Shown here: positions 2,832 to 16,702 of the stretch, piece after piece
Layout of the letters: each line of letters begins with the position of its first letter
Numbering within the stretch: position 1 is the stretch's first letter
DNA from: a virus
DNA length: 20,983 nt
Direction: 5' to 3' (one strand)
Virus record (IMG/VR): IMGVR_UViG_3300006916_008554
Span: 1 to 20,983 of that record
Program-made: the position numbers and the translations under genes
The notes under the pieces: generated by a model
What the model saw: the letters and a program-made list of their open reading frames with translations, nothing else
Databases searched by the model: none
What the model was told of the DNA's origin: nothing

Positions 2832-3896
2832 ATGGATTCAGAAACAATTAAAAAAGTTGAGTTATCTATTGATAATTTAAATAATAAAACTGCTAGAATA
2901 TACTTTATGGTTCAGGACACCAAAGGAAACGCCAAAGCGGGTGTTAGACAGATATATAAAATAGCTCTCACTTTGAAGAAAAATGGGTTTAACACATTTA
3001 TTATACATGAAAAAAACGATTATTCCGGAGTTTCGAGTTGGATGGGTGAGGAGTATATGGAACTACCTCATGAAAGTATTGAAGAGCAAAATTTAAAGAT
3101 ATCTCCTGAGGATTTTATAGTTGTCCCTGAAATATATGGTCACGTATTAGACCAATTAAGCGGTCTATCTTGTGGTAAAATTGTTTTGTGTCAGGCATAT
3201 GACCATATGTTAGAAACACTACAACCAGGCACTACTTGGTCACAATATGGGTTTGTAAAGTGTATAACGACTAGTGAAGAACAAAAAAAATATATAGAAG
3301 AGGTAATGAGAAATGTTAGTGTCGATATTATTGAACCGTTTATACCTGAACAATTTACTAAAAAAGAATTACCGTCAAAACCAATAATATCTATACACAC
3401 TAGAGAGCAAAGGGACACTATGAAAATAATTAAAACTTTTTATTTAAAATACCCACAATATAGATGGATAACTTTTAGAGATATGAGAGGATTGAATCAA
3501 GAAGAATTTGCGGAATATTTAAGAGATTCTTTCGTTTCGGTATGGGTCGATGATACATCGGGATTTGGAACATTCCCTATTGAATCTATGATGTCTAAAA
3601 CACCCGTTATAGGAAAGGTTCCAAATATGAAACCATCATGGATGAACGATAATAATGGAGTTTGGACATATGAGTTAAATAATATCCCTGATATTGTTGC
3701 CGAATTTATTCAAAATTGGTTGGAAGACAACATTAATGACGAATTATATGAAAAAGGTTTAGAAACGGCATCTAATTACTCTAATATAGATAAATTTACA
3801 GAAAATTTGACCAAAACGTTTGATGGTTATCTACAAGGTCGTAAAGTTGTGTTTGAATCACAACTTGATAAACTAAAAGTTGAAGAAGAAAATTAA
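2832..3896 (+). CDS. glycosyltransferase, GT-B fold (GT4-like)
   Basis: The 354-aa protein has the two-lobed layout of GT-B enzymes. Residues 22-55 form an opening Rossmann strand and loop (IYFMVQDTKGNAKAGVRQIY), where substrate-binding N-lobes carry a G-rich turn. The C-lobe contains ISIHTREQRD (about 186-195) and the donor-binding segment SGFGTFPIESMMSKTPVIG (about 243-261). That segment matches the GT4 E-x7-E block, but the first Glu is Ser and only the second Glu is kept. It would transfer a sugar from an activated donor to a glycan, lipid or protein. With the following GT-A gene and the acyltransferases it forms a glycan-modification set, presumably for virion decoration or for changing the host surface. 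Acceptor and sugar are unknown. Confidence 0.75.
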   Translation: MDSETIKKVELSIDNLNNKTARIYFMVQDTKGNAKAGVRQIYKIALTLKKNGFNTFIIHEKNDYSGVSSWMGEEYMELPHESIEEQNLKISPEDFIVVPEIYGHVLDQLSGLSCGKIVLCQAYDHMLETLQPGTTWSQYGFVKCITTSEEQKKYIEEVMRNVSVDIIEPFIPEQFTKKELPSKPIISIHTREQRDTMKIIKTFYLKYPQYRWITFRDMRGLNQEEFAEYLRDSFVSVWVDDTSGFGTFPIESMMSKTPVIGKVPNMKPSWMNDNNGVWTYELNNIPDIVAEFIQNWLEDNINDELYEKGLETASNYSNIDKFTENLTKTFDGYLQGRKVVFESQLDKLKVEEEN

Positions 3897-3899
3897 ATT

Positions 3900-4700
3900 A
3901 TGAACATATCAGTAATATTACCAATAGAATCATCTAAACATAAAAATTTCGATTCTCTATTTAAATCTTCAATTACTTCAATAACTAATCAGAATTTACC
4001 TGATGGTGAGATAGAAGTAGTACTTGTTCACTCTGATGAGGAAAGTTTGGTTAGTAAAATTAAATCTTTTGATTATAGTGGGTTAACAGTTAGTTTTATT
4101 GAGAATAATAAAGATACAGACTTTAGTACACAAGTAAATTTAGGTATTACAAATGCTACAAATGAATGGGTTAGTATATTAGAATTTGATGATGAATACT
4201 CAAACATATGGTTTAAAAATGTACTTAAATACACAAAATCATATCCTGATTTTGATGGGTTTTTACCTATAGTTGTAGATACTGATGAAAAAGGTGTGTT
4301 TGCTGGATTTACAAATGAAGCGACATTTGCTGCTAATATGAACACTGAGATTGGTATTTTAACTAATGAGGTTTTAATGAATTATCAAAACTTCCAATCA
4401 AGTGGAATGGTATTTAAGAAAAAAATATTCGATTCTTTTGGTGGATTTAAGAAATCAATGAAATTAACCTTTGTTTATGAGTTTTTATTAAGGATAACAT
4501 ATAACTCAGCAAGGATTATGACTATACCTAGAATTGGATATCGACACTCAAACATGAGAGAGGGTTCAATATTTTGGGACTATAAATACGGGAATAATCA
4601 ATTAACTGAGGACGAAGTCAAGTTTTGGATTGATTCAGCAAAAAAAGAGTATTATTTCAAAGAGGATAGAAATATAAAATATGAAGTAGTGAATGTTTAA
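3900..4700 (+). CDS. family 2 glycosyltransferase (GT-A fold)
   Basis: The 266-aa product begins with the GT2 strand MNISVILPIE and an N-terminal helix, then EVVLVHSDEES (about 39-49), matching the nucleotide-binding strand, and FSTQVNLGITNATNEWVSIL (about 75-94), followed by EFDDEY, a typical GT2 signature in which the acidic cluster D97-D98-E99 coordinates the divalent metal and donor phosphate. About 265 aa is the normal size for a single catalytic domain. No transmembrane helices are seen, so it should be cytoplasmic. It starts three bases after the GT-B gene stop and ends in a TAATG overlap with the gp55-like gene, so sugar-transfer and late-transcription genes share an operon. Confidence 0.82.
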   Translation: MNISVILPIESSKHKNFDSLFKSSITSITNQNLPDGEIEVVLVHSDEESLVSKIKSFDYSGLTVSFIENNKDTDFSTQVNLGITNATNEWVSILEFDDEYSNIWFKNVLKYTKSYPDFDGFLPIVVDTDEKGVFAGFTNEATFAANMNTEIGILTNEVLMNYQNFQSSGMVFKKKIFDSFGGFKKSMKLTFVYEFLLRITYNSARIMTIPRIGYRHSNMREGSIFWDYKYGNNQLTEDEVKFWIDSAKKEYYFKEDRNIKYEVVNV

Positions 4701-11455: not shown

Positions 11456-11629
11456 ATGACTCAAGTTAATTACAGAACGTATCAACTATTAAAAGAAAAT
11501 GTGGTAGTTTTGGAAACCGAAGCCGCAACATTTGAAAGAGCTGTCGATTATTTTTGTGACATTCACCCGAATGCATATACCGACACAACATATAAGTTCA
11601 AGGTCGTTCAGCCGAAATACGGATTTTAA
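11456..11629 (+). CDS. small protein of unknown function
   Basis: I choose the ATG at 11456 (57 aa, starting MTQVNYRTYQLL) over the longest frame from 11381, because the longer start lies within the poly-lysine gene and its first 25 codons read as overlap. The product has a beta strand, an FERAVDYFCDIHPNAY helix and a closing strand (YKFKVVQPKYGF), a compact alpha/beta shape. No family recognised. Its stop overlaps the stop of the convergent minus-strand gene by two bases, and no terminator is visible there. Confidence 0.55.
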   Translation: MTQVNYRTYQLLKENVVVLETEAATFERAVDYFCDIHPNAYTDTTYKFKVVQPKYGF

Positions 11630-11889
11630 TATTCTTCAATAAGTATTTTAAGGTCACCAGTCCCTTTAATTACTCTGTGGTAGGTCTCCTTAGGGATTTC
11701 AAATTTTACTCCTTTTTTGAGGGGTATAGGTAACTCATTGTCCATTTGAAAGTACCAATCGGTATCCTTTAATACCTCTACTAACCTATTTTCTTTATCT
11801 CTGTGCCATTTTAATTCAGTTTCAGGTACATCTGAAGAAAAAACACGCTCAAATTTATTACTCGATATATTTTTTTGACTGTATATCAT
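11626..11889 (-). CDS. small cupin-like protein
   Basis: An 87-aa product with the pattern of a single-domain RmlC-like cupin seen in phages: ELKWHRDKENRLVEVLKDTD (about 25-44), WYFQMDNELPIPLKKGVKF, then IPKETYHRVIKGTGDL (about 66-81). The H-R and Y-H-R positions could supply metal or ligand contacts, but the complete four-ligand cupin set is not present. Biochemical role unknown. The start codon overlaps the stop of the T9SS-sorted secreted protein gene by ATGA, so the two are translationally coupled and probably produced together. It ends tail to tail with the plus-strand gene at 11456. Confidence 0.6.
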   Translation of the reverse strand: MIYSQKNISSNKFERVFSSDVPETELKWHRDKENRLVEVLKDTDWYFQMDNELPIPLKKGVKFEIPKETYHRVIKGTGDLKILIEEY

Positions 11890-13520
11890 CTAACAATAGT
11901 AACATGTCCAACTAACTTCTCAATAAATGAAGAGTTAATTCTTCTTGCAGTAAAAGTCCATGTGTAAGTATCTATTTGTGAGTAATATAAACCGTCTTTA
12001 TAACTACCATTCCATTTTAAATTATTTATATCACGACTTTCCCATATATTTTCACCCCACCTGTTAAATATTTTTACTTCAACATCAGTCCAACAATCAG
12101 GACTAATTATAACTTCCCATACATCATTTATACCATCATTATTCGGGGTAAATGAATTAGGTATATAAATGTCACTATTCTCACAACTCAATAAACCGAT
12201 ATCATCACAAGGTAAACCTGTTATACAATCAACTAATATAAACTCATATTGTATAATAGTATCAAATAGTGTTTGATATATAGTGTCTGTTATAAAAATT
12301 AATTCAGTCTCTATTATAGTGTCTATTTGAGTCACTATAAGGGTGTCTGTAACGAATTCTGTAAGCGTTATGGTATCAGGTGGTAATTCGACGTATAAAG
12401 TGTCTGTAACGAATTCTGTAAGCGTTATGGTATCAGGTGGTAATTCGACGTATAAAGTGTCTGTAATCGTTTCTATTAAAGTTATAGTATCAGGTGGTAA
12501 TTCGACGTATAAAGTGTCTGTAACGAACTCTGTGAGTGTTATGGTATCAGGTGGTAATTCTACATATGTCGTATCATACTGTGTAATATATTCAGTTTCT
12601 AATATTGTTACAGTATCGGTAGGAAACTGTATAATGATAGTATCTCCAGGTAATTCAACATAAAAAGTGTCTACTTGAAATATATAAGTAAATGTAAAAA
12701 TTGAATCTATTTGAATTATATATGTATATATTGTATCCGCAGGTGTAAATATTTCTATGGTGTCAGGTGGAGATTCAACAAAAATAGTATCAATACAATT
12801 ATATTCACAACTTCCATCATCAAATTCTGCGTCTTCATCGTAATTAATTGCATTCTCATCGGTACAACCTATTTCATCATCGGAATATAAACACTCAATG
12901 GGAGGATTTGGTGAAGAGATACTATATGTAGGGTTTTCATCTTCGCACGTCCTCCATACGTTATCACAGTCTTGGTCCGGATAAGGTATTCCTGGATTTT
13001 CATTTCCTATCGCCCAACCACCGTCTTGTTGGTACCAAGTACTAGAATAGTTTATTTGCCATATAACAAACTCAATACATTCTCCTTGTGACAACCAATA
13101 GTCTATATACTCGTCGAAACAGTTTTCAGGTAACGCAGGATTAGGATATTCATAATCTAATTGCATTACTATAGTATCACCCGCAGTTAATGGAAAATCA
13201 TAACCAAAATCGGAAGACCAATTACCGGGTAACGCGTTTGCATTAGGTCCCCATATCCATCCTAAGTGATTGTTTTGTTGCATTGCACAATTACCTACAT
13301 TCCAGTTATCCTCATTACCAGGAACATGGGCACCAATTTGAATCATATTTACCTCCGAGTTAGACCCTTGGTATCCAATATTTCCACAATTAGTACTATT
13401 GTTTACTACAACAGTTGCTTCATAAGTATTTAAATTTACATCTATGATTGATAAATCACATTGTGAGCTCATTAAGAATGAGCTTAATAATAAAAATATA
13501 AGACTAAAAACACCCTTCAT
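11886..13520 (-). CDS. secreted surface protein with T9SS type B sorting domain
   Basis: I start this gene at the ATG at 13518-13520 (544 aa) because it opens with a clear signal peptide (MKGVFSLIFLLLSSFLMSSQ, probably cut before Cys21). The longer frame to 13658 would hide the signal and overlap the upstream gene. Residues 21-210 are a Cys- and Trp-rich extracellular domain. Residues about 217-240 (GCTDENAINYDEDAEFDDGS) match an acidic, probably calcium-binding repeat common in Bacteroidota secreted proteins. About 250-430 is a Thr/Asp-rich stalk with a 19-residue repeat. The last 93 residues (452-544) are a gliding-motility/CHU_C-type C-terminal domain: YIPNSFTPNNDGINDVW, VKIFNRWGENIWES, and terminal GHVTIVR. 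That domain routes proteins through the T9SS to the outer surface. The product should therefore sit on or leave the infected host cell. It starts four bases after the 304-aa gene stop. Confidence 0.85.
   Translation of the reverse strand: MKGVFSLIFLLLSSFLMSSQCDLSIIDVNLNTYEATVVVNNSTNCGNIGYQGSNSEVNMIQIGAHVPGNEDNWNVGNCAMQQNNHLGWIWGPNANALPGNWSSDFGYDFPLTAGDTIVMQLDYEYPNPALPENCFDEYIDYWLSQGECIEFVIWQINYSSTWYQQDGGWAIGNENPGIPYPDQDCDNVWRTCEDENPTYSISSPNPPIECLYSDDEIGCTDENAINYDEDAEFDDGSCEYNCIDTIFVESPPDTIEIFTPADTIYTYIIQIDSIFTFTYIFQVDTFYVELPGDTIIIQFPTDTVTILETEYITQYDTTYVELPPDTITLTEFVTDTLYVELPPDTITLIETITDTLYVELPPDTITLTEFVTDTLYVELPPDTITLTEFVTDTLIVTQIDTIIETELIFITDTIYQTLFDTIIQYEFILVDCITGLPCDDIGLLSCENSDIYIPNSFTPNNDGINDVWEVIISPDCWTDVEVKIFNRWGENIWESRDINNLKWNGSYKDGLYYSQIDTYTWTFTARRINSSFIEKLVGHVTIVR
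12343..12570 (-). repeat. four tandem 57-bp repeats encoding the T9SS protein stalk
   Basis: Four head-to-tail copies (12343-12399, 12400-12456, 12457-12513, 12514-12570) encode a 19-residue unit DTLYVELPPDTITLTEFVT. The first two copies are identical at DNA level and the others differ by a few bases, so the expansion is recent. The unit sits in a longer Thr/Asp-rich stalk with more degenerate copies on both sides. Copy number probably varies between relatives. Confidence 0.9.
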
Positions 13521-13524
13521 GTAA

Positions 13525-14439
13525 TTACCAATACCTACCTGAAACATTTTTACCAAAGTCTTTATGTGCTCTACACGCCCAGTATCCCGCTTTTGTTCTA
13601 TCTTTTTTTTTGTGACACTGATGTCTAGCCGCGAAAGATTTTCTAGCTGCCGGGTCATTCCACTTTGCAGTCATAGTAGATGAACCATAACTTATTTTTT
13701 TAATTTTACCTGTTTTAGGATTTCTTACATATACATACCATTTTTTAGAGCCACCTGTTTTTGGTTTTCCTATGGGAGGGTCCTTCTTCTTCTTTTTTTT
13801 ACCCTCATTTAAATTTTCTTCATACTCAAAAGGGAAATCTAATGGTACTTTACCCTCAGTAGTGTTAACAAAAGTACCCACTTCGGATTTTAAAATTTCA
13901 ACATCAAAATCGTTAAATTGATATCCGTTGTTATATAATTTTCTAGATTCATTAACTATTTCAAAATATTTTTCGCTCCCGTGTCTAAAAATATTATCTG
14001 TTATTGATATATTATTATCAAAATGATATTGTAACTCTTCGGATATCTGAGTTTTTTCAAGTACTATTTTATTTATACTTTCTCTAATTATATTTTTAAC
14101 GTACATTGATTCATTTTTAGATTTTTTTTTATAGTTTTTTACTTTAATCCTCGTTGGACTTTTACCTTTTGTGTCTTTTGACCTACCTTTTTCTTTCTCT
14201 CTTTTCCTGCGACATGCGGAATCTTTGGCTGACTGACTCATTTTTCCAGCAACACCCGCTCCCCTACATACAGGATATCCTCCTTTATCTGAATCACTAC
14301 GACCACAGGGTGGGTGACCACCACCTTTTTTTTTCTTACAGATATTAACCCATGGACCTTTAGGTTGTTTAGAACCTTTTTTCTTTTTTTTCTTACCAAA
14401 CCATACGGCTAAATCTTCAGATAAAATATATTTGTCCAT
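13525..14439 (-). CDS. modular lysine-rich protein, candidate packaged and processed internal protein
   Basis: The 304-aa product is built from basic modules joined by linkers. Residues 1-90: ILSEDLAVWFGKKKKKKG, then a Cys-rich segment (GGGHPPCGRSDSDKGGYPVC and KMSQSAKDSACRRKRE) that looks like the DUF5872-type module of phages and large viruses. Residues 110-212: a less basic helical part beginning SMYVKNIIRESINKIVLEK, similar to the N-terminal helix of the poly-lysine protein at 11161. Residues 213-304: GKKKKKK followed by KKWYVYVRNPKTGKIKKISY and ARKSFAARHQCHKKKD, ending near GYWACRAHKDFG, a module I have seen in small T4-like phage proteins. LSE (6-8), IRE (118-120), ISE (132-134) and LNE (210-212) fit the prohead protease motif, two of them just before poly-lysine. 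A GGGAG Shine-Dalgarno-like site precedes the ATG, which is rare here. Confidence 0.72.
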   Translation of the reverse strand: MDKYILSEDLAVWFGKKKKKKGSKQPKGPWVNICKKKKGGGHPPCGRSDSDKGGYPVCRGAGVAGKMSQSAKDSACRRKREKEKGRSKDTKGKSPTRIKVKNYKKKSKNESMYVKNIIRESINKIVLEKTQISEELQYHFDNNISITDNIFRHGSEKYFEIVNESRKLYNNGYQFNDFDVEILKSEVGTFVNTTEGKVPLDFPFEYEENLNEGKKKKKKDPPIGKPKTGGSKKWYVYVRNPKTGKIKKISYGSSTMTAKWNDPAARKSFAARHQCHKKKDRTKAGYWACRAHKDFGKNVSGRYW

Positions 14440-14965: not shown

Positions 14966-16702
14966 TTATCTTAACTCATTTAAGTCAAATGTTCTAACTC
15001 CATCAACTGTAATCTTACCGTAGAAACGGTTATTTACCATCTTCTTAGCGTATCTTGTCATGATACCCTTGATTGGTGTGAAGTTGAATGGGTTATACAT
15101 TGTTGGTGTCAACTGTAATGGTACGTATGGTGCATACACATAACCTGTGTCAAGTAGTGATGAACCTTTGTGTCCTAACAACAATGTGTTTGCTGGGAAA
15201 TAAGGGTCACGATAAACTTGATATCTACCTGATAATGTACCTACTCTTTCAATACCCATGTTATACTGGTCCTGGTCAGGAGCCGCGTTTGAAACGTGGA
15301 AGTACTCAAGGTCGTCAAAGATTGCTGAAACCTCTGAAGATACAACAATCCAGTTAGCACCACCTCTTAGAGTTGATTTATGGATTTGTGCTGAAACTTG
15401 GTTGATTGCAGTAATCAATGTTTGGTTCCAGTCCTTTTGGTTATAGTTAATAGAACCATTAGAAACTCTCTTCCAACCATCGTAATCCCATCTTAATGAC
15501 CAAGCAGCTCCTTTTCTTAAGTCTCTTAAGATTTCGCGGTCAATTTCTGCAGCTACCTGCTCTGATAACAACGCTGTCAATTCAGCCTCTGCATCAATAT
15601 TATGGAATGCAGAAACGTCTTGAGCGAGTTCTGGTGACCACTGAGCTCTTAACTTTCTTTCAGTTACTGAAACCGTAACCGCTTCAAGGTCAAATGATAC
15701 TTCACCAATAGCGTCTTCAAACTCCAATGTCTCATATCTTCTCCAAGATGCAGTTATAGTTGGTGCACTAGCAAATGTAGTACCTGTATATCCATCGGTT
15801 GAAGATGAACCGAATTCTGCAGGAACTGATGTGTCGATATCTAAGTAAATTGTACCAGTTTGGTCACAAATGTTATCGTAATTACCACCAGGACCTGAAC
15901 CTGGGAATGGTGCTGATGTTTTTGTACCATATTGTACAATACCCTTACCATATTTTTGTGTTACAACTCTAAAGTTCCAGTATGTTGGGTCAGTAGGTAA
16001 GTCAGTGTAAACTTCTAATGAAGATAGGAACTCTTCAGTATCCATCTCTTGTCCGTCAGGACCGATTAATTTACCAGCACCCACGCTTGAGAATCCTGTT
16101 AAGGATACTAAGATAGACCTCGTGTTACCGGTTACTGTACCTCCTGGTACTAATGTACCACCAGACCACTGAACTGCAGTACATGTACTAGTTAATGCGG
16201 TATATGCACCTTTTGAGTAATCAAATAATCCTTCAGGACTTGAATTAGGTGTTTTACCTTCATAAAAACGGTCATACAAGTTTTTACCTGTATCGTAGTT
16301 ATCAGATGTACCACCTGTATATCCAGGTGCTCCGTATGGTTGTAAGTGTGTATTATCAGTGTTTCTGTTCTGAATCTTTGGAACAAAGTAGAACAATTTA
16401 CCGATTGGTAGGTTCATAGCTTGAACTGAAACAATGTCATTAGCCAATAACTTAGAAAAAACTCTTCTTACGATTGGGAAAACGACAGTTTCGAATGAAC
16501 CTGAACTATCTGAAGCAGCAGCTTCGTTTATCAAATATGATGCTTGGTTCTCATATAACTGAGCCATATTTTCTTTTAAGTGTCCTTTAAGACCGTCGAG
16601 GAACCCTAACTTGTCCCATTTGTTAATTGTGTCTTCTTTGATAACTTTAAGGTGCTTAAGACCGATGTTACCAACTAGACCTGATTCTAATAATGCTCCC
16701 AT
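14966..16702 (-). CDS. major capsid protein, gp23-like
   Basis: The 578-aa product reads as a T4 gp23 homologue: an N-terminal helical propeptide (residues 1-60), INE at 58-60 followed by AAASDSSGSFETVVFPIVRR, the expected (L/I)xE cut position (T4 cuts after Glu65), then the HK97-fold core. Typical gp23 stretches include VTERKLRAQWSPELAQD, AAEIDREILRDLRKG and, near the end, LTPTMYNPFNFTPIKGIMTRYAKK. Residues about 130-300 form an enlarged Gly/Thr-rich insertion that differs from T4 and may be surface exposed. Synonymous codons look less AT-biased than in neighbouring genes, as expected for the most abundant virion protein. The start is 22 nt downstream of the scaffold stop with no Shine-Dalgarno site. 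Its transcript ends at the 14921-14946 terminator. Confidence 0.93.
   Translation of the reverse strand: MGALLESGLVGNIGLKHLKVIKEDTINKWDKLGFLDGLKGHLKENMAQLYENQASYLINEAAASDSSGSFETVVFPIVRRVFSKLLANDIVSVQAMNLPIGKLFYFVPKIQNRNTDNTHLQPYGAPGYTGGTSDNYDTGKNLYDRFYEGKTPNSSPEGLFDYSKGAYTALTSTCTAVQWSGGTLVPGGTVTGNTRSILVSLTGFSSVGAGKLIGPDGQEMDTEEFLSSLEVYTDLPTDPTYWNFRVVTQKYGKGIVQYGTKTSAPFPGSGPGGNYDNICDQTGTIYLDIDTSVPAEFGSSSTDGYTGTTFASAPTITASWRRYETLEFEDAIGEVSFDLEAVTVSVTERKLRAQWSPELAQDVSAFHNIDAEAELTALLSEQVAAEIDREILRDLRKGAAWSLRWDYDGWKRVSNGSINYNQKDWNQTLITAINQVSAQIHKSTLRGGANWIVVSSEVSAIFDDLEYFHVSNAAPDQDQYNMGIERVGTLSGRYQVYRDPYFPANTLLLGHKGSSLLDTGYVYAPYVPLQLTPTMYNPFNFTPIKGIMTRYAKKMVNNRFYGKITVDGVRTFDLNELR

Follow-up and report, generated by a model that had tools for sequence, protein, structure and literature searches.

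A family of phage genes encoding predicted type B cargo of the host type IX secretion system

A phage gene with a type B sorting domain

This study examined a gene carried by a 20,983-base virus fragment from IMG/VR (record IMGVR_UViG_3300006916_008554, here called the window), the product of which ends in a type B sorting domain of the type IX secretion system (T9SS). It had been predicted, from the sequence alone, to encode a phage protein that the host T9SS sorts to the cell surface. At the sequence level this interpretation is well supported, by profile matches and syntenic copies, by purifying selection, and by the linkage of the N-terminal domain to the type B tag throughout the family. 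The predicted coordinates were correct, with the reading frame lying on the minus strand, as the plus-strand translation of the interval is riddled with stop codons. The frame opens with ATG at 13520, and its final sense codon, ending at 11889, is followed by a stop codon at 11888-11886. The gene and the parts of its product are as follows.

11886-13520, minus strand: complete gene for the predicted phage-encoded T9SS type B surface protein, 544 amino acids plus stop
13464-13520, minus strand: predicted signal peptide, residues 1-19, cut before Q20 (heuristic scan; 'QCD' conserved in the family)
12912-13463, minus strand: Cys/Trp-rich N-terminal domain, residues 20-203, the family-defining ectodomain (YIDYW...GEC.E...WQINYS.TWY..DGGWA; alignment A4)
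12807-12869, minus strand: hinge motif GCTDENAINYDEDAEFDDGSC (GCTD..DDGSC), residues 218-238, from the sequence
12231-12794, minus strand: Asp-Thr-rich repeat stalk, residues 243-430, including a 19-residue repeat
11889-12167, minus strand: type B T9SS sorting domain (CHU_C / TIGR04131), residues 452-544, from profile matches

The profile comparison proposed with the original prediction identified the sorting domain, and both scores lay above the curated cut-offs. CHU_C (PF13585) matched residues 452-524 (E=3.7e-13, 49.8 bits, cut-off 27), and the TIGR04131 type B sorting domain matched residues 452-542 (E=1.9e-12, 47.1 bits, cut-off 35), at the extreme C-terminus of the protein. The window protein matched these type B profiles and not Por_Secre_tail, which describes type A. 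Type B substrates have five conserved motifs, A-E, in their last 100 residues (PMC12618676); the conserved C-terminal blocks found here were PN.FTPNNDG.ND, NRWG, W.G, Y.W, and G..T..R, the motifs A-E not being spelled out in that source for comparison. CHU_C was the only match of the window protein in a Pfam search, with no adhesin, lectin, or SprB (PF13573) domain detected, and a PHROG search gave no match.

The N-terminus, MKGVFSLIFLLLSSFLMSS followed by QCD, resembles a signal peptide by a home-made hydrophobicity rule, with a clear hydrophobic leader ending in SS directly before QCD, and the position of the cleavage region is conserved in the homologues L002 and L094-L104. In the stalk there are 17 Asp-Thr dipeptides within residues 245-430, and the sequence ELPPDTI recurs at 321, 340, 359, and 378, giving a period of 19 residues; the length of the stalk differs among homologues. 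The hinge motif is repeated in the copies L102, L108, and L109.

An AF2 model of the N-terminal domain (pLDDT 63, pTM 0.68) was mostly beta, and the best PDB fold matches were to lamin Ig and Fn3 domains (Z ≤ 5.8, Foldseek E ≥ 0.026), so that the domain is only possibly Ig/Fn3-like; a PDB sequence search found no relative. A structure search of BFVD with the same model recovered two deposited viral proteins whose predicted structures resemble it, A0A7S9STS8 of Virus NIOZ-UU157 and A0A516LPX6 (Foldseek 5.0e-4 and 1.5e-9, respectively). Both bear automatic names only, that of the former being 'Gliding motility-associated C-terminal domain-containing protein'. The full-length model was mostly unconfident (pLDDT 48), with the sorting domain appearing in it as a beta-rich structure at pLDDT values mostly of 70-89.

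Four other viral contigs (L001-L004), from four different metagenomes, carry the gene. L001 and L002 have full-length, syntenic homologues of 80-84% identity, while those of L003 and L004 are partial, and the genes on either side of the L002 copy are identical in kind to those of the window. Between the window and L002, dN/dS was 0.086 for the T9SS gene, 0.079 for its sorting domain, and 0.126 for the capsid gene, and the T9SS gene is under purifying selection similar to that on the capsid gene.

Head operon insertion and spread among phages

The phage context was as originally predicted. The neighbours of the gene, by PHROG, include a T4-like major head protein, a head maturation protease (phrog_207, 3.5e-42), and PhoH, and the capsid protein is closest, among deposited records, to those of a huge uncultured phage and of Flavobacterium phage immuto. 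The labels given to the two flanking genes were not confirmed, as the 'cupin-like' 87-residue protein had no Pfam or PHROG match, and the supposedly virion-type basic protein matched only PHROGs of unknown function.

14966-16702, minus strand: T4-like major capsid protein gene, in the same operon block (phrog_138, 8e-67)
13525-14439, minus strand: upstream basic protein gene (PHROGs 7595/23735, function unknown)
11626-11889, minus strand: downstream 87-amino-acid gene, its ATG overlapping the stop of the T9SS gene (ATGA)

The stop of the basic protein gene lies 4 nt ahead of the ATG of the T9SS gene in the window. The site is empty in ten relatives whose capsid block is similar, the basic protein gene ending in a stop that overlaps or adjoins the start of the counterpart of the 87-residue gene; at this point L021, an eleventh relative, has another small frame. 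Both the window and L002 carry the T9SS gene precisely between these two genes, as a clean insertion into the head operon. The ATGA overlap, the exact junctions, and the patchy distribution of carriers mark it as an accessory gene that is tied by overlap to this operon. Carriers stand beside non-carriers in the capsid tree, which is compatible with either a single insertion of the gene or two. G013, related to the window by its capsid, encodes elsewhere in its genome a long CHU_C protein (L086:1492-3264) in which GCTD..DDGSC recurs many times, and the near-identical L019 has the empty site between the basic and 87-residue genes.

Three viral scans made with the N-terminal domain alone gathered a family of 35 IMG/VR viral loci, with identities down to about 30%. 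A profile built from the other groups, with that of the window left out, recovered the window protein at 1.7e-60. Complete members range from about 420 to over 1000 amino acids, the stalks varying while both ends are fixed. CHU_C scored above its cut-off in 14 of 14 records, and then in 10 of 15 further records, the five misses all being genes cut by the end of a contig. Every copy with its 3' end present therefore bears the type B tag.

The family is spread among several unrelated phage groups, which include T4-like phages (G058, of 212 kb, has phrog_138), podophages, and further large contigs. Podophages of Flavobacterium and Cellulophaga are the nearest deposited relatives of the podophage carriers, which have a phrog_6681 terminase and a phrog_6547 portal, and in which the gene is found directly upstream of the terminase and portal genes, beside a tRNA gene. 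In one such carrier a tRNA-Met gene (L099:7890-7964) overlaps the start of the T9SS reading frame, and a tRNA-Arg gene follows other podophage copies. In L168 the family gene is followed by genes that include those for virion structural proteins; the copies in L102 and L108 do not adjoin head genes.

A search of 50,697 phage records brought up matches to the tag and hinge regions only and none to the N-terminal domain, which was not found in plasmids either. Two scans of 85k species genomes also found no relative, although each used just two short peptide patterns and was of limited sensitivity. The family is likely to be phage-specific, which, given the few patterns used in the genome scans, falls short of proof.

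Probable export by host shuttles and the possible roles of the protein

Type B substrates require a PorP/SprF shuttle, which is scarce and apparently not recycled (PMC12618676), and a complex of SprB with SprF has been described (PMC9143113). On its own, the SprB tag is enough to hold other proteins at the cell surface and to move them there, while anchoring by other type B tags is static (PMC12618676, PMC9143113). PorP/SprF (PF11751) was absent from all 19 phage records searched, of up to 296 kb, whereas the positive control gave strong matches in two Bacteroidota plasmids, and on one plasmid, pGSB-24, a CHU_C gene is directly followed by porP/sprF. Neither neighbour of the window gene, the 87-residue gene or the basic protein gene, is a porP/sprF. 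As the phage records lack a shuttle gene, export of the phage protein probably relies on the PorP/SprF shuttles of the host.

The following scheme would account for these data. A late accessory gene of the head operon would encode an exported phage protein, which in an infected Bacteroidota cell would be taken to the periplasm by Sec via its signal peptide, and there its type B C-terminal domain would be recognised by the host type IX system and the protein exported. A host PorP/SprF-type shuttle would then carry it and anchor it on the outer face of the cell, with the Asp-Thr stalk holding the conserved N-terminal domain outward. The surface of the infected cell would be changed such that further phages, as well as its own progeny, attach less, either because the domain on display may obstruct a surface structure or occupy it, or because the cargo may deplete the host's shuttles, which are scarce and otherwise deliver phage-receptor adhesins such as SprB. 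Interference with adsorption is suggested as the purpose because flavobacterial phages use gliding and T9SS surface proteins for adsorption (PMC13288928, PMC7345892).

The computed observations from which this scheme sets out are the tag, the conserved architecture, purifying selection, the clean operon insertion, the spread among unrelated phages, and the lack of a shuttle gene in the phage records. Its parts differ in strength. Export by Sec and the T9SS, with anchoring at the surface, can be expected with good confidence by analogy with relatives that have been tested. The original prediction allowed for a protein held on the cell or shed from it; retention is favoured, and shedding is less likely, since SprB-type type B tags anchor their cargo via PorP/SprF (PMC12618676, PMC9143113). 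Superinfection exclusion by receptor or shuttle interference is the likeliest role, yet is offered tentatively and as a hypothesis only. Taken whole, an exported surface protein that is anchored by host shuttles and reduces the attachment of further phages is the best explanation, and one we lean towards. Infected cells thus probably display a phage-specific surface protein, judging from its sequence features, and this perhaps hinders further phage attachment. A more elaborate version is doubtful, in which the protein, made at the level of capsid genes and without a shuttle of its own, would seize host PorP/SprF, displace SprB-type receptor adhesins, and substitute a phage domain for them, in unrelated Bacteroidota phages.

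Several points weigh against the explanation as a whole. The signal peptide call comes from a simple home-made rule and not from SignalP. The N-terminal domain has no confident fold match (the best being Ig/Fn3-like, Z 5.8). Most close relatives are without the gene, which indicates that it is dispensable. Lastly, the window is a 21 kb fragment and all of the phage records may be incomplete, so that a shuttle gene could possibly lie elsewhere in the genome.

The main rival is adhesion, between cells or to virions. The protein would be a surface adhesin that attaches an infected cell to particles, to other cells, or to virions already released, and progeny would thereby be more likely to meet new hosts, with no exclusion involved. 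A beta-rich domain that is at best Ig/Fn3-like, carried on a long stalk, is an adhesin-like build, and a phage of the same capsid clade (G033) has SprB repeats and T9SS type A tags. However, no binding function could be recognised, the adhesin, lectin, and SprB domains of Pfam being among those not found in the window protein, and this role is considered somewhat unlikely.

It is improbable that the protein works alongside co-encoded proteases in an attack on the host envelope or on competitors, as it might by presenting a secreted M43 metalloprotease or aiding its action. This idea arises from two contigs in which the family gene directly adjoins a gene for a secreted Peptidase_M43 (4.6e-16 and 2.9e-14, in L159 and L160, respectively), and from M12/M43-like reading frames just upstream of the L102 copy.

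L159:6843-8888: secreted Peptidase_M43 gene adjoining the family gene
L160:2917-4953: secreted Peptidase_M43 gene adjoining the family gene

No protease gene is present beside the gene in the window, in L002, or in the podophage group, and L159 and L160 also hold TonB-receptor genes and so may contain cellular sequence. These TonB-dependent receptor genes (L159:2087-4804 and L160:9171-10615) lie near the family gene, and are either unusual for a phage or cellular in origin.

A recently captured bacterial surface protein gene, carried as a passenger without any phage-specific role, is quite improbable. CHU_C proteins are ordinary in Bacteroidota, as seen in the plasmid matches, and the presence of the gene among relatives is patchy, as would be expected of a passenger. 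Against this, the N-terminal domain occurs in the 35 viral loci (to about 30% identity) but in no plasmid and, by the two limited scans, in no bacterial species genome, the gene is under purifying selection, and, in contrast to the Flavobacterium plasmid example, no SprF gene stands next to it.

The family gene lies in or beside head and packaging genes in several lineages, and its product could accordingly be imagined as a virion protein, such as a head fibre or decoration, that reuses CHU_C as a structural module and is never exported. This is very improbable, because a signal peptide with the 'QCD' cleavage region is kept across the family, and makes no sense for a head part assembled in the cytoplasm; moreover, close relatives with the same head genes lack the T9SS gene, and in L102 and L108 it is located away from head genes. 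An assembly chimera of host and phage DNA, an objection raised at the outset, was ruled out by syntenic homologues on independent contigs from different metagenomes, all with the same gene order, and by the exact operon junctions.

Known counterparts and other secreted proteins of the capsid clade

The idea of phage-encoded T9SS cargo is already known. In Cryophage, sorting-domain proteins that vary between phage genomes and are proposed to use the host T9SS were described as a unique occurrence, and superinfection exclusion was suggested for them (Bellas et al. 2020, PMC7468147). There, type A tags are borne by an endoglucanase, a GH39 protein, and a PA14 protein in one phage, whereas the present family has a type B tag, another ectodomain, and members in several phage lineages. 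For crAss-like phages, a 2019 report notes open reading frames near head genes that combine BACON repeats with a T9SS sorting domain (PMC6949934); those are gut phages, and the window protein has no BACON domain. Type B substrates, SprB of Flavobacterium johnsoniae among them (PMC12618676, PMC9143113), have a signal peptide, as is predicted for the window protein, and share with it extended repeats and a C-terminal type B domain. They differ in being chromosomal and usually paired with an adjacent porP/sprF, while the phage protein has neither SprB repeats nor an adjoining shuttle gene.

No account of a type B phage family was found in searches of the open-licence literature. If the interpretation is right, the single reported case of phage T9SS cargo would be extended to a widespread, probably phage-specific type B family, and phages would display proteins of their own via a secretion route of Bacteroidota and their relatives. 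It would also imply a contest between phage and host over adhesin shuttles, which could be tested directly in Flavobacterium and Cellulophaga, two genera for which phage adsorption and resistance have already been connected with gliding and T9SS proteins.

Other secreted proteins are encoded in the capsid clade. On the 229 kb contig of G033, five secreted-looking genes stand in a row right after the capsid gene (L067:12015-18932), among them genes for a subtilase and a second protein that each have SprB repeats and Por_Secre_tail, and for a third protein with SprB repeats. In four further contigs (L030:5015-6762, L049:11975-13048, L085:5949-7328, and L068:16048-19296), no more than about 4 kb past the capsid gene, secreted proteins with Fn3, GEVED, or galactose-binding-like domains are encoded, and the complete ones have ends such as NLLGQEV...G..I.YEDGT..KV.R. 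By eye, the proteins of all five contigs resembled type A cargo, but only the two from L067 passed Por_Secre_tail. The remainder gave no match to these two in a profile comparison, and are not claimed as T9SS cargo.

In G034, a 296 kb contig, three small secreted proteins are encoded consecutively (L090:33-1773), with a CHU_C tag on the third only, as if a large adhesin had been split over three genes. The window itself carries, on the plus strand at 121-1054 and 2832-4700, two hexapeptide-repeat (LpxA-like) transferase genes and two glycosyltransferase-like genes, by which the phage may possibly make further modifications to surfaces or glycans.
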